This document shows, one piece after another, positions 5,225 to 8,875 of a stretch of DNA of 64,000 bases. Position 1 is the stretch's first letter. The number at the start of each line of letters is the position of its first letter. The stretch lies in the NCBI RefSeq assembly GCF_011250565.1, contig NZ_JAANMS010000007.1, forward strand, positions 1-64,000. The letters are read 5' to 3'. The stretch is from Nocardioides sp. IC4_145 (lineage in GTDB: Bacteria; Actinomycetota; Actinomycetes; Propionibacteriales; Nocardioidaceae). Below the pieces are notes generated by a model. That model did no database searches, had not been told where the DNA came from, and worked only from the letters and a program-made list of their open reading frames with translations. The translations under genes were made by a program, and so were the position numbers.

Positions 5225-5668
5225 TCAGAAGCCGCCGTTCTGCTCGCGCCGGCGGCGCCAGCGCTCCTCCATGCGCTCCATGAAGGAGCCGGAGGAGCGG
5301 CGGGTGCGACGGGGGCGGCTCTTGCGACCGCCGTCGATGACGGTGAAGCGCGAGGGGTGTGCGGCCTGGCGCGGGTCGGGCGGAGCCGCTGCAGCCGCGG
5401 GCTGACCGCGGAGCGAGGTGAGGGCCACGGTGCCGGCGCCGAGCATGACGAGGAACCCGATGATCCCGACGACCGGCAGCTGCGTCACCACGCCGGTCAT
5501 CAGCAGCGCGACACCAGCGACGAAGCAGGCGCCGGCGGCGATGGCACGACGACGAGCGGAGCGGCGCAACGACGTGCCGCGCAACGTGGAGGCGAACTTC
5601 GGATCCTCCTCCGAGAGCGCGCGCTCCATCTGCTCGAGCAGTCGCAGCTCCTCTTCGGAGAGTGGCAC
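5225..5668 (-). CDS. DUF3040 domain-containing membrane protein
   Basis: A small actinobacterial protein of 147 residues. It opens with the family signature PLSEEELRLLEQMERAL, has a pair of hydrophobic helices near residues 45-90, and ends in a basic, low-complexity tail. The frame is open further upstream, but the GTG at 5668 is chosen because a GGAGG ribosome site precedes it and the family normally begins at this point. Function is unknown. Members often sit near the division and cell-wall gene cluster, and the MoxR operon beside it fits that picture. Confidence 0.9.
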   Translation of the reverse strand: MPLSEEELRLLEQMERALSEEDPKFASTLRGTSLRRSARRRAIAAGACFVAGVALLMTGVVTQLPVVGIIGFLVMLGAGTVALTSLRGQPAAAAAPPDPRQAAHPSRFTVIDGGRKSRPRRTRRSSGSFMERMEERWRRRREQNGGF

Positions 5669-5756
5669 CGTTCCTCCACTGGTCGTACGGCCGGTACACG
5701 CCCCACGCGGGTCGTGTCGCAAGTCTAGGCAGGCGTTTCGGAACGCGGTAGCCGCG

Positions 5757-7085
5757 TCAGTGAAATTGGTCGCTCGGCGGCTCGCCGGCCCCACCGCCGA
5801 CACCCGTGCTGGCGTCTCCGGCGGACCGGCGGCTGGGCGCCGGCGGGGTCCGCGCGCCGCCCAGGAGGGTCGCCGGGCGGACCGCCCCCGAGCCGAACCG
5901 ACCGGCGGCCCGGTCGACGGCGCGGTCGGCCTCGGACCAGCCGTGCTCGCGCTCCCCCAGGACCCGTTGCCGGTGCACGCGGGTGCGCGGCACGAGGCCC
6001 TCGACCCGCACCCCGACCAGCCGCAGCGCGGCGGACCGACCGCGCCGGCCGCCTCGGGAAGCCCGGTTGCGGGCGACCTCCGCGTCGTGCAGCGCGACCG
6101 CCGCGGCGTACACCTCCTGGGTCACGTCGGTCGGCTCCGGCAGCGTCTGGGAGCGGGTGAGGGTCGTGAAGTCGGCGTACCGCACCGTCAGGACGACCGT
6201 CCGGCCCGCCACCTCCCCGGCCCGGAGCCGGCGGGTCACCTTGGCCGCCAGCCCGAGCACCTCGCGCAGCACCTCGTCGCGGTCGGTCAGGTCGCGGGCG
6301 AAAGTGCGCTGCGCGCCCATCGAGCGGTCCGGCTCCTGTGGTCCGCGTCGCTCGTGCAGCTCTGTGCGGTCGCGCCCCCAGGCGAGCAGGTGGAGCTGGC
6401 GGGCCGCGCCGGGCCCGACCGCGGCCCGCACCTCCTCGGTCGGCGCGTGCGCGAGCTGGCGGACGGTGCGCAACCCGGCCCGCCGGAGCTTGGCAGCGGT
6501 CGCCTCCCCGACGCCGTACAGCTCCTCGACGTCGAGGGCGTGCAGGAAGTCGACCACCTCGTCGGGCGGGACGACCACCACCCCGTCGGGCTTCGCGCGC
6601 CGGCTCGCGATCTTCGCGACCGACACGGTCGGCGCGACGCCGGCCGAGCAGGTGATGCGCTGCTCCTCGTGGACGGTCGCGCGGACCATCTCCGCGATCG
6701 TGAGCGGCGACCCCAGCAGCCGGGTCGCGCCGCGCACGTCGAGGAACGCCTCGTCCAGGGAGGCCATCTCCACCACCGGCGTGAACCGCCGGAAGATCTC
6801 CCGCAGCGCGGAGGACACCGCCGAGAACGTCGCGTGGTCACCCGGCAGCGAGACCAGGTCCGGGCACAGCCGGCGCGCCCGCACGCCCGACATGCCGCCG
6901 CGGACGCCGTGCGCGCGCGCCGCGTAGTTGGCCGAGAGCACCACCCCGCGGTGCCCACCGCCCACGGCCACCGGCAGGTCGTGGAGGTCGGGCCGATCGC
7001 GCAGGGCGACCGAGGCGAAGAACGCATCCATGTCGACGTGCAGCACCGGGCAGTCCCACGACCGGTCGACCCGGCCGTCGCTCAC
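5757..7085 (-). CDS. dinB: DNA polymerase IV (Y family)
   Basis: A full-length 442-residue Y-family translesion polymerase. The palm carboxylates are present in HVDMDAFF (D18) and in SLDEAFLDV (D111, E112), so this is a catalytically competent DinB rather than an inactive ImuB-like relative. A helix-hairpin-helix motif follows in YGVGEATAAKLRRAGL, then the little-finger domain and a disordered Pro/Gly-rich tail. It is the last gene of a minus-strand group with a methyltransferase, a HEPN protein and a DUF6504 protein, downstream of a DNA-damage promoter. Whether that promoter reads through to dinB is not shown. No sliding-clamp motif was assigned. Confidence 0.95.
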   Translation of the reverse strand: MSDGRVDRSWDCPVLHVDMDAFFASVALRDRPDLHDLPVAVGGGHRGVVLSANYAARAHGVRGGMSGVRARRLCPDLVSLPGDHATFSAVSSALREIFRRFTPVVEMASLDEAFLDVRGATRLLGSPLTIAEMVRATVHEEQRITCSAGVAPTVSVAKIASRRAKPDGVVVVPPDEVVDFLHALDVEELYGVGEATAAKLRRAGLRTVRQLAHAPTEEVRAAVGPGAARQLHLLAWGRDRTELHERRGPQEPDRSMGAQRTFARDLTDRDEVLREVLGLAAKVTRRLRAGEVAGRTVVLTVRYADFTTLTRSQTLPEPTDVTQEVYAAAVALHDAEVARNRASRGGRRGRSAALRLVGVRVEGLVPRTRVHRQRVLGEREHGWSEADRAVDRAAGRFGSGAVRPATLLGGARTPPAPSRRSAGDASTGVGGGAGEPPSDQFH

Positions 7086-7142: not shown

Positions 7143-7907
7143 TCAGCGCGCGAGCAGGTGCAGCTGGGTCGCGAGCGGGAGGTACTCCGGCCGGTCGGCG
7201 ACGGCGCGCTCCAGCTCGACGAGGGCCGCGGCAGCGCCCGGCTCGGCGTCGAGGAGGGACCCGGGCACCAGGTCCGCGAAGACGCGGACCGCGTGGACGC
7301 CGTCGACGGTGAAGCCGGCGTCCTGCAGCAGGCGCTCGACCTCGTCGCGGGTGAAGCGCCGACCCGAGCGCCCCGGGCTCGGCGCAGCCGGGTCGCCGTC
7401 GAGCAGGGCGATCGCCTGCTGGAAGTGACCGGCCATCGCCCGGGCGACGACGGCCGCGTGCCGCTGGGCGACCAGGAGGCTGAGCGTGCCGTCGGCGCGC
7501 AGGGCCGAGCGGAGCGCACCGAGCGCGGCCGCAGGGTCCTCCACGACCTCGAGCACCCCGTGGCACAGCACCACGTCGGCGGCATCCTCGCCGACGACGT
7601 CGGCGAGGCCGGCGAGGTCGCCCTGGTGCGCGGCCACCTCGACGCCCCGCTCCCGTGCGCGGCGGTCGAGGGAGGCCAGGGCGTCCGGGCTCGGGTCGAC
7701 GACGGTGACCCGGTGGCCCGCCTGGGCGACCCGGACCGCGAAGCCGCCGGTGCCGCCGCCGATGTCGAGGACGTCGAGCGGACCCTGGTCGAGAACGTCG
7801 CCGAGGGCACTCCAGACGACCGCGGTCCGTGCCGCCGTACGGCGCTCGCTCGGACGGTCGCTGGTTCGGTCGCCGGGTCGGTCGCCGGGCCGCTCGGGAA
7901 CTGGCAT
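7143..7907 (-). CDS. Class I SAM-dependent methyltransferase
   Basis: A 254-residue methyltransferase. The SAM-binding motif VLDIGGGTGGFA lies near residues 46-57, an acidic strand end VTVVDPSPDAL follows, and DVVLCHGVLEVVEDP forms the motif-IV region. The N-terminal 30 residues are charged and probably disordered. The substrate cannot be read. The family includes CmoA/UbiE-like small-molecule and tRNA enzymes. An extended -10 (TAGGCT) lies eight bases before the ATG, so it can be transcribed as a leaderless message independently of the genes upstream. Confidence 0.92.
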   Translation of the reverse strand: MPVPERPGDRPGDRTSDRPSERRTAARTAVVWSALGDVLDQGPLDVLDIGGGTGGFAVRVAQAGHRVTVVDPSPDALASLDRRARERGVEVAAHQGDLAGLADVVGEDAADVVLCHGVLEVVEDPAAALGALRSALRADGTLSLLVAQRHAAVVARAMAGHFQQAIALLDGDPAAPSPGRSGRRFTRDEVERLLQDAGFTVDGVHAVRVFADLVPGSLLDAEPGAAAALVELERAVADRPEYLPLATQLHLLAR

Positions 7908-7949: not shown

Positions 7950-8408
7950 TCACCCGACCCGGCGCACGACGTGGACCTGCACCGGCGCGTGGGGCACGAG
8001 CCCGAGCGCCTGCTCGACCACGCCGAGGAACCGGTCGGCGTCCCGCACGAGGTCGTCGGCCTCGCGCTCGGTCACCGCCCGCCGGGAGCCCGCCTCGGCC
8101 GCGGCCCGCTTGCCGGCACCCGCGGCGAAGAACCGCGCCCACTCCTCGAGCTCGGGAGCGACCTCCACGAGGAGGACCCACGCGTTCTTCTGCGGCCGCC
8201 GCCGCGCGGGGGTCGGCCGGGCCCGCGCCGCGAGCAGCGCCGCGGCCGCCCGGAGTGCCGCGACGTGCGCGTGGGCGTAGCGCTCGGTCACCTCGGTCGC
8301 GGCGATCGCCTCGCTCAGCGACTCCGCCGACCGGGCCAGGTAGGCGTGCGTCGTGGCGGGCAGGGCGTAGGGGTTCGGCTGTTCCGGGACGCTCCGCACG
8401 GCGCTCAC
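7950..8408 (-). CDS. SAV_6107-type HEPN domain protein
   Basis: A 152-residue, mostly helical protein resembling the SAV_6107 HEPN family of actinobacteria. Recognisable parts are ALPATTHAYLARSAESLSEA at the N-terminus and the stretch READDLVRDADRFLGVVEQA near the C-terminus. The start is the GTG at 8408, which overlaps the TGA of the DUF6504 gene (GTGA) and has a G-rich ribosome site just upstream. The classical HEPN RNase motif RxxxxH was not found with confidence. Relatives are often found beside mutasome or polymerase Y genes, which matches its place here. Confidence 0.85.
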   Translation of the reverse strand: MSAVRSVPEQPNPYALPATTHAYLARSAESLSEAIAATEVTERYAHAHVAALRAAAALLAARARPTPARRRPQKNAWVLLVEVAPELEEWARFFAAGAGKRAAAEAGSRRAVTEREADDLVRDADRFLGVVEQALGLVPHAPVQVHVVRRVG

Positions 8409-8677
8409 TCCCCCGCCCCCGCACCGGCCGCCAGCAGCCAGCGTCCGGCCGGCACGTCGTGGACCAGCTCGAACACCCCGCCGCCCGCCGGACCGTCCTG
8501 GTCCAGCCGGCCGCGACCCGCCGCCACGCGCCACACCTCGCGCGGCGGCAGGTCCTGGCTGCGCCGCTCGAGCACCGCCCGCACCTTCCACAACCGCCCG
8601 CGCCACAGGAACTGGGCCGGGCCCTCGAGCCCGCCCGCACCGGTCCGCACCTCGACGGGGTCGTCGTACCGCACCAC
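8405..8677 (-). CDS. DUF6504 family protein
   Basis: A small protein of about 90 residues. It has the family pattern VRYDDPVEVR, then FLWRGRLWKVRAVL, and ends with GVFELVHD and GRWLLA. The start at GTG 8677 (or the next GTG, 8674) is chosen because GAGGAGCGAGG lies just upstream and the domain begins there; a GTG at 8722 is also in frame. In other actinobacteria this family is commonly encoded with ImuB/DnaE2-type translesion genes. It is the first gene after the LexA/PafBC promoter. Its biochemical function is unknown. Confidence 0.82.
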   Translation of the reverse strand: MVRYDDPVEVRTGAGGLEGPAQFLWRGRLWKVRAVLERRSQDLPPREVWRVAAGRGRLDQDGPAGGGVFELVHDVPAGRWLLAAGAGAGE

Positions 8678-8781
8678 GTCCGCCTCGCTCCTCGGGCTCC
8701 CGCCCGGATCCGTCGACCCCACCGACCCCGGACCGTGCCGCCCGGCGGGGACGGGGGTCGAGGTCGTCCCCGCCGGGTTGA

Positions 8782-8797
8782 TCGAACACCTGTTCGA
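8782..8797 (-). promoter_or_regulatory. LexA (SOS) box
   Basis: TCGAACACCTGTTCGA is a near-perfect palindrome and matches the actinobacterial SOS-box pattern TCGAAC-N4-GTTCGA. It begins immediately downstream of the start site predicted from the -10 at 8806-8811, so bound LexA would block initiation or early elongation toward the DUF6504-HEPN-dinB side. Confidence 0.88.
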
Positions 8798-8805
8798 ACA
8801 AGACG

Positions 8806-8828
8806 AAGGTACACCTCTCCACCGACAG
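8806..8828 (-). promoter_or_regulatory. PafBC-type (RecA-NDp) DNA-damage promoter
   Basis: On the minus strand CTGTCGGTG (8828-8820) is followed by exactly eight bases and then TACCTT (8811-8806). The LexA-independent damage promoter of actinobacteria is TTGTCRGTG-N8-TANNNT. Eight of nine upstream bases, the spacer and the -10 pattern all match. The predicted start is near 8799, just before the LexA box. Confidence 0.75.
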
Positions 8829-8875
8829 GTCGTCAAGACCTGCCGGCGGTGGCTGGGGAGGAGCCGGCCCGGACC

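Follow-up and report, generated by a model that had tools for sequence, protein, structure and literature searches.

The window analysed here, a stretch of 64,000 nucleotides from Nocardioides sp. IC4_145, carries on its minus strand a gene of the DUF6504 family, followed by genes for a HEPN_SAV_6107 protein, a methyltransferase and the polymerase DinB (Table 1). The preliminary description had placed two DNA-damage motifs back to back on this strand, ahead of a DUF6504-HEPN unit linked to dinB. Both parts of that claim are borne out: Pfam matches identify the genes, and CTGTCGGTG-N8-TACCTT (8828-8806) directly precedes an exact LexA palindrome. Read from the sequence, the minus-strand order is TTGACG-ACC-TGTCGGTG-GAGAGGTG-TACCTT-CGTCTTGT-TCGAACAGGTGTTCGA. 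The upstream element agrees with the published tTGTCRgtg-8-TannnT (PMC5656591, in extract) at 8 of 9 bases and with exact spacing, and lies upstream of the gene on the correct strand, as a PafBC-dependent (RecA-NDp/P1) promoter would have it. The palindrome is an actinobacterial SOS box at the promoter, the mark of the LexA/SOS regulon, and its position agrees with the earlier statement that it begins two bases past the predicted transcript start. The -35 hexamer TTGACG, the class-wide spread and the covarying leader hairpin described below were not part of that first account.

Table 1. Features of the HEPN-linked locus, in window coordinates
Feature	Position	Strand	Basis and remarks
-35-like TTGACG	8831..8836	-	Sequence; 19 bp from the -10
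PafBC (RecA-NDp) -26 element CTGTCGGTG	8820..8828	-	Genome and window motif scans; consensus from PMC5656591 (in extract)
TGTCGGTG, part of the PafBC element	8827-8820	-	Sequence
-10 TACCTT	8806..8811	-	Sequence, window scan; exactly 8 nt after TGTCGGTG
Predicted transcript start	8799	-	Inferred from -10 spacing
LexA/SOS box TCGAACAGGTGTTCGA	8782..8797	-	Motif scans; about +3 to +18 of the predicted transcript
Leader hairpin	8741..8777	-	13-bp stem, loop ACCTCGACCCC (8764-8754); model match 8740-8778
GGGGTCGA, perfect 8-nt complement of the hairpin loop	8713..8720	-	Pseudoknot candidate
DUF6504 gene	8405..8677	-	GTG start, alternative GTG 8674; PF20114, 33.2 bits (cut-off 24.2)
HEPN_SAV_6107 gene	7950..8408	-	PF18726, 122.1 bits; 4-nt overlap with the DUF6504 stop
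Methyltransferase gene	7143..7907	-	Pfam; probably same operon; same order in L066, L070, L113
dinB (DNA polymerase IV)	5757..7085	-	Pfam; probably same operon

The operon may extend further, because a gene of the SCO2097 family (DUF3040; 5225-5803, same strand) overlaps the end of dinB. The HEPN_SAV_6107 protein passes the Pfam cut-off and is modelled with the helical HEPN fold (pLDDT 91), which together place it in PF18726; its structural neighbours in the PDB are HEPN proteins, the nearest solved structure being 2hsb (TM 0.76 by target, E 0.08). RYxxAH-type matches, candidates for the catalytic RX4-6H of active HEPN RNases, are present in 89 of 90 HEPN proteins, and the match in the window's protein lies in the second helix. 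In the table of Anantharaman et al. SAV_6107 is listed without an RNase motif (PMC3710099).

The DUF6504 protein of the window is diverged and lacks the HWVETGPWW-type segment kept by its relatives. The family precedes HEPN in 37 of the 88 loci counted below, and phylum-wide a LexA box (at most 1 mismatch) accompanies 28/30 DUF6504 loci, close to the start of the gene wherever its position was listed. SOS operons with stand-alone ImuB-C proteins have been described (PMC3765255, PMC6511836, both in extract), and DUF6504 resembles these as a small beta protein whose gene lies with that of DinB or DnaE2 in operons of this kind. In other classes the family precedes a PHP/Pol III alpha gene: 11/15 downstream reading frames carried PHP or Pol III alpha, and 4/15 matched no family. 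The published cases differ in that the word HEPN is absent from the main text of PMC3765255 and PMC6511836. A one-sequence comparison of DUF6504 with ImuB gave 0.2%, and a six-sequence ImuB profile gave 67% (E 5e-5) for DUF6504 of the other classes and 16% for the main set, while a Foldseek search with DUF6504 returned no match below E 3. An identity of DUF6504 with ImuB-C is thus at most weakly to moderately supported. We think that the operon may serve translesion synthesis with DinB. The one open library searched held no paper naming DUF6504 and one naming SAV_6107, and a plasmid search for annotated DUF6504 gave one match, which was unannotated. In the other actinobacterial classes (L273-L299) the gene after DUF6504 is DnaE2-like; a LexA box usually lies directly ahead of DUF6504, and a TGTCGGAG-type element is seen in L274, L289, L291 and L299.

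The two motifs in their own genome

Both motifs have a single exact match in the window. When up to 2 mismatches are allowed, the LexA box has 8 matches (2.53 in shuffles) and the PafBC core 15 (6.77 in shuffles). Across the 4.27-Mb genome the LexA box has 4 exact matches, compared with 1 for the backward pattern, and the PafBC core has 9. Allowing up to 1 mismatch raises the PafBC count to 84, against 3 for its backward pattern, which puts this motif far beyond chance expectation here. The two exact sets coincide solely at 8782-8827. The genes that follow the other eight exact PafBC sites (identities read by eye) are recA, dnaX, dnaB, clpP, a dGTPase, endonuclease IV, an enoyl-CoA hydratase and one unnamed gene. 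One further exact LexA box precedes an imuA-like gene (read by eye) that is followed by imuB-like and dnaE2-like genes (Pfam IMS; PHP/Pol III alpha), and another an alkB-like gene (read by eye). The exact box at G000:C44:114957-114972 precedes a small unnamed reading frame about 17 kb from recA.

The genome also encodes the regulators. LexA itself is present (235.9 bits; cut-off 110.95), and downstream of pafA come an FKBP-like gene (read by eye) and genes for two WYL proteins, of which one has the PafC HTH, so that both pafB and pafC, which a PafBC-dependent promoter presupposes, are found. Their presence weighs against attributing the upstream element to a different regulator of P1 motifs, such as ClgR. 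ClgR has been mentioned as recognising the P1 region in M. smegmatis (PMC5656591, in extract); however, a contact of PafB with the -26 motif and PafBC dependence of P1 transcription have been reported (PMC5656591, PMC11804915, both in extract), and we consider a ClgR-type reading quite improbable.

Conservation in the genus and the class

The preliminary description had named the loss of either motif in close relatives as one result that would refute it; the comparison was run and the motifs are kept. PF20114 (DUF6504) was found in 20 of 39 genomes, namely 15 of 25 from the window's genus (window included) and 5 from another family; no DUF6504 match was obtained in 10/25 same-genus genomes. 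All 15 same-genus loci carry a LexA box and a PafBC core, each with at most 1 mismatch, separated by 8-10 nt, and in the aligned promoters TGTC, the TA of the -10 and GAACA are invariant. The five loci of the other family have an exact LexA box and 1, 1, 2, 4 and 1 mismatches in the PafBC core.

For the class as a whole we turned to PF18726 (HEPN_SAV_6107), which is present in 197 of 296 genomes. We examined 90 loci: the 30 best-scoring, 15 of them from one genus (f22), and 60 chosen by hand among the matches listed, about one per genus, with 13 of the 15 genomes of the window's genus that had a match. Together they cover 63 of 87 positive genera, the low-scoring genera lying outside the sample. 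Counts are given for 88, the window excluded and two loci omitted (L185, with 235 nt upstream, and L175, which carries a composite with 2+0 mismatches). At no more than 1 mismatch, the LexA box occurs in 72/88 loci (reversed 0, shuffle mean 0.2) and the PafBC core in 53/88 (reversed 1, shuffle mean 0.4), and within 1.5 kb upstream none of the 88 loci lacks both motifs. Composites of both number 29 at up to 1+1 mismatches and 36 at up to 2+2, the latter in 14 of 30 families, with gaps of 8, 9 and 10 nt in 16, 13 and 5 of the 39 pairs found. Neither the reversed nor the shuffled sequences of these loci yielded a composite. This conservation refutes a chance co-occurrence of the two motifs, to which we attach a practically negligible probability, and supports their function.

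The pairing is not uniform. The 16 loci without a LexA box (at most 1 mismatch) comprise all 15 f22 loci and one of f7, and all have a PafBC core. In the f22 loci (L171-L174 among them) a TGTCAGTG element with one mismatch stands 179-252 nt before the domain match in 15/15, and in 7/15 the PafBC core is preceded, at about 40 nt, by a LexA-like sequence with 2 mismatches. We take f22 to be Streptomyces. The M. smegmatis PafBC motif has been stated not to be conserved in S. venezuelae (PMC9380542). In f20 and f17 the PafBC match can stand apart from the LexA box, and one f1 locus, L245, is without a composite. Because 43 of the 72 LexA-positive loci lacked the PafBC core (at the setting of the spacer analysis below), PafBC control appears to be lineage-dependent. 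One might go further and take LexA for the working regulator and the PafBC-like element for a leftover, or for a minor enhancement confined to some lineages, given that LexA boxes (72/88) outnumber composites (36/88) and that some f1 copies (L202, L212, L233) have 2 mismatches in the PafBC core. Nonetheless, TGTC is invariant across the 15 aligned same-genus promoters and the -35/-10 spacing shifts with the PafBC element, and this reading therefore seems improbable to us.

Scanning genome contigs with a free gap of 0-30 gave at least 118 composites. Of the 118 listed, 32 have HEPN downstream, each with a pattern gap of 8-10; some 14 loci end too soon for the downstream gene to be judged. Rhodococcus, Solihabitans, Gandjariella and Enemella are among the HEPN-linked matches, as is Nocardioides abyssi, whose HEPN shares 95% identity with that of the window. 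Other composites among the matches listed (L031-L148) precede genes whose names are our reading of sequence clusters: 13E12/HNH-like (28), recA (12), LysM-type (5), dnaB-like (5), dnaE2-like (4) and uvrA-like (1). The 13E12/HNH composites (family name again by our reading) resemble that of the window in having a PafBC core and then a LexA-like palindrome; they differ in their pattern gap, 0-2 nt in 24 of 28 listed loci and 11-13 in 4, and often, as we read them, in an ATG inside the palindrome. The LysM-gene composites (L048, L057, L072, L096, L133) have the same 8-10 nt gap, which is thus not confined to HEPN genes. We link these LysM-type genes to the M. tuberculosis operon divergent from lexA. 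That operon has three SOS boxes and a PafBC motif, and both systems are reported to act together in vivo (PMC8151990, in extract); the pairing of motifs is therefore not new, but the window's promoter has another target. In C. glutamicum the LexA target cg2381 is induced by ciprofloxacin (PMC5055667, in extract), and the window's operon would be like it in placing an uncharacterised gene under LexA and DNA damage. C. glutamicum does have PF18726. Going by gene order, we guess that cg2381 may be the HEPN gene.

Promoter geometry and regulatory logic

According to the preliminary description the arrangement was of the recA type, and here the comparison goes against it. At recA of the same genome the LexA box (1 mismatch) is separate and ends 69 nt before the PafBC motif. 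Mycobacterial recA likewise has two separate promoters, a LexA-dependent P2 and a gene-proximal, LexA-independent P1 (PMC5656591, in extract). What the window shares with P1/P2 is the use of the same two damage systems, TGTCRGTG-8-TANNNT and a LexA box, for one gene (PMC5656591, PMC11804915, both in extract). Unlike mycobacterial recA, with its two promoters and the PafBC one proximal to the gene, the DUF6504-HEPN unit has a single promoter, in which the LexA box overlies the predicted start and 19 bp separate the -35 from the -10. The motif elements and their pairing are known, and we suggest that the target operon and the -35/-26/-10/operator layout are new; the HEPN operon with this layout was not found in the literature searched (one open library).

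This geometry is constrained. Of 93 HEPN-linked contexts, among which up to 4 mismatches are allowed, 68 have TTGAC at 8-10 nt ahead of TGTC; the figure for other composites, which are exact, is 7 of 85. The -35/-10 spacer was measured wherever a locus had a LexA box and a scorable pair: it is 18, 19 and 20 bp in 4, 12 and 4 PafBC-positive loci, and 16, 17, 18, 19 and 20 bp in 1, 18, 6, 6 and 2 PafBC-negative ones. The commonest spacer is thus 19 bp in PafBC-positive and 17 bp in PafBC-negative loci, and a spacer of at least 19 bp goes with the PafBC motif (Fisher p 1.4e-4, the relatives not being independent). Several of the PafBC-negative 19-bp loci carry degenerate TGTC elements. In our reading, an ordinary LexA promoter may have become activator-dependent through a spacer 2 bp longer.

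How such a promoter might work can be sketched as follows. A single hybrid sigma-A promoter would drive DUF6504, HEPN_SAV_6107, the methyltransferase and dinB. Its -35 is good, but the 19-bp distance to the -10 should leave the unaided promoter weak. PafBC is activated by ssDNA and PafB reads the -26 motif (PMC11804915, in extract); bound at TGTCGGTG, PafBC would let the housekeeping polymerase use the promoter. LexA on the start site would block initiation or escape until its RecA-driven cleavage. With LexA over the start of a PafBC promoter, LexA should be dominant and both inputs needed, and the net logic would be activator present and repressor gone. Because both regulators read ssDNA, LexA via RecA, the operon may be held tightly off and respond late, or to strong damage only. 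The basis in the sequence consists of the motifs, their conservation, the constrained geometry, lexA and the pafA-pafB-pafC cluster; from it we infer binding, the start site, the AND logic, the extent of the operon and the function of its proteins.

An alternative is that control is additive, with two overlapping starts, one for polymerase bound by PafBC and one for a plain LexA-repressed sigma-A promoter made of TTGACG and a -10, so that either signal suffices. The retention of TTGAC in HEPN-linked contexts fits this, as do some f20 loci in which a LexA promoter lies upstream and a PafBC-like motif closer to the gene (L218, L223, L227, L250 and L251, the latter element being TGTCGGTG and the gene HEPN). 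In the window, however, one -10 fits both, the LexA box just downstream should block either mode, and a 19-bp spacer is poor for an unaided promoter. We consider OR control unlikely, though worth keeping in mind. TTGACG could also give some PafBC-independent basal activity, in which case the logic would be LexA-gated and not strictly AND. Of these readings we favour, with moderate confidence, the hybrid sigma-A promoter that fires when PafBC is active and LexA is gone, and that would drive a translesion-repair operon.

The leader hairpin and the meaning of the locus

Just after the LexA box of the window stands a hairpin, and hairpins of this kind recur in the leaders of other loci. Strong ones (score of at least 33) were found in 64 of 124 leaders and 7 of 578 control windows, and at a score of at least 24 the counts are 82/124 and 90/578; no strong hairpin was seen in 42/124 leaders. 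Two fixed loop classes, CCTCGACCC and GGGGAAG, run across the leaders, and among the hairpins scoring at least 24 one of the two loops is present in 65 of 82 from leaders and 1 of 90 from controls. In L223, L227 and L250 a GGGGAAG hairpin lies between the LexA promoter and the TGTCGGTG element.

The stems covary. In the first class, 14/14 pairs have changed on both sides among 31 distinct aligned hairpins, which were preselected for loop and stem (L224, distant in position, was omitted), and 96.3% of pairing cells are paired, compared with 73.3% when shuffled and at most 55.7% when slid. As a control, this class of hairpin occurs in 42 of 70 cases in leaders and in 3 of 1415 elsewhere. The GGGGAAG class, for which 22 of 25 distinct hairpins were aligned after the same preselection, covaries at 13 of 14 pairs, a measure reached by 83 of 500 shuffles, whereas the other four measures were reached by none; a stem was also present at 25/313 sites outside leaders, some perhaps from the same loci. 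A covariance model finds the window site in its own genome at E 8e-10, the next of the 14 listed matches having E 0.094. Over 72 sources the model has 20 matches at E of at most 0.01, and its matches include hairpins outside its training (L248, L219, L242, L243). It also matches the opposite strand of the window, at 28.5 bits, as a palindrome would.

Additionally, the loop often has a partner. A perfect loop complement of at least 7 nt within 60 nt downstream is present in 27 of 48 class A leaders (2.9 expected), most class A members being close relatives, and in 6 of 17 class B leaders (0.3 expected); the cross-class loop control gave 6/816 and 12/816. When tested singly, 29 of 82 loops reach p 0.05. 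Rfam gave 4 weak matches for the leader hairpin, the best at 16.7 bits against a gathering score of 49, and 0 matches in nine loci. An intrinsic terminator was considered and dropped, there being no T run after the hairpin and the loop being conserved. A fixed loop on a covarying stem argues for an RNA and not a DNA operator. The leader is therefore, in our judgement, probably an undescribed cis-regulatory RNA across Actinomycetia, a long covarying hairpin with loop CCUCGACCC or GGGGAAG, often complementary to a later GGGGUCGA or CUUCCCC (a pseudoknot or kissing pair), which would act as a third, post-initiation gate on a mutagenic repair operon. We guess that this gate is translational or works by anti-termination. 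Of the promoter and the leader hairpin, the latter may be the greater novelty.

The motif scans and the comparison with relatives confirm a real, conserved and doubly marked promoter. PafBC has been studied in mycobacteria, and two listed genomes of the genus g13, which we tentatively take to be Mycobacterium, are without HEPN; the HEPN target may have escaped study for this reason. By bringing a damage activator and the SOS repressor together on one promoter, the locus would be a natural system for testing how the two combine. Moreover, it would connect translesion polymerases, a source of damage-induced mutation, with two uncharacterised proteins and with a leader RNA that has no Rfam match.
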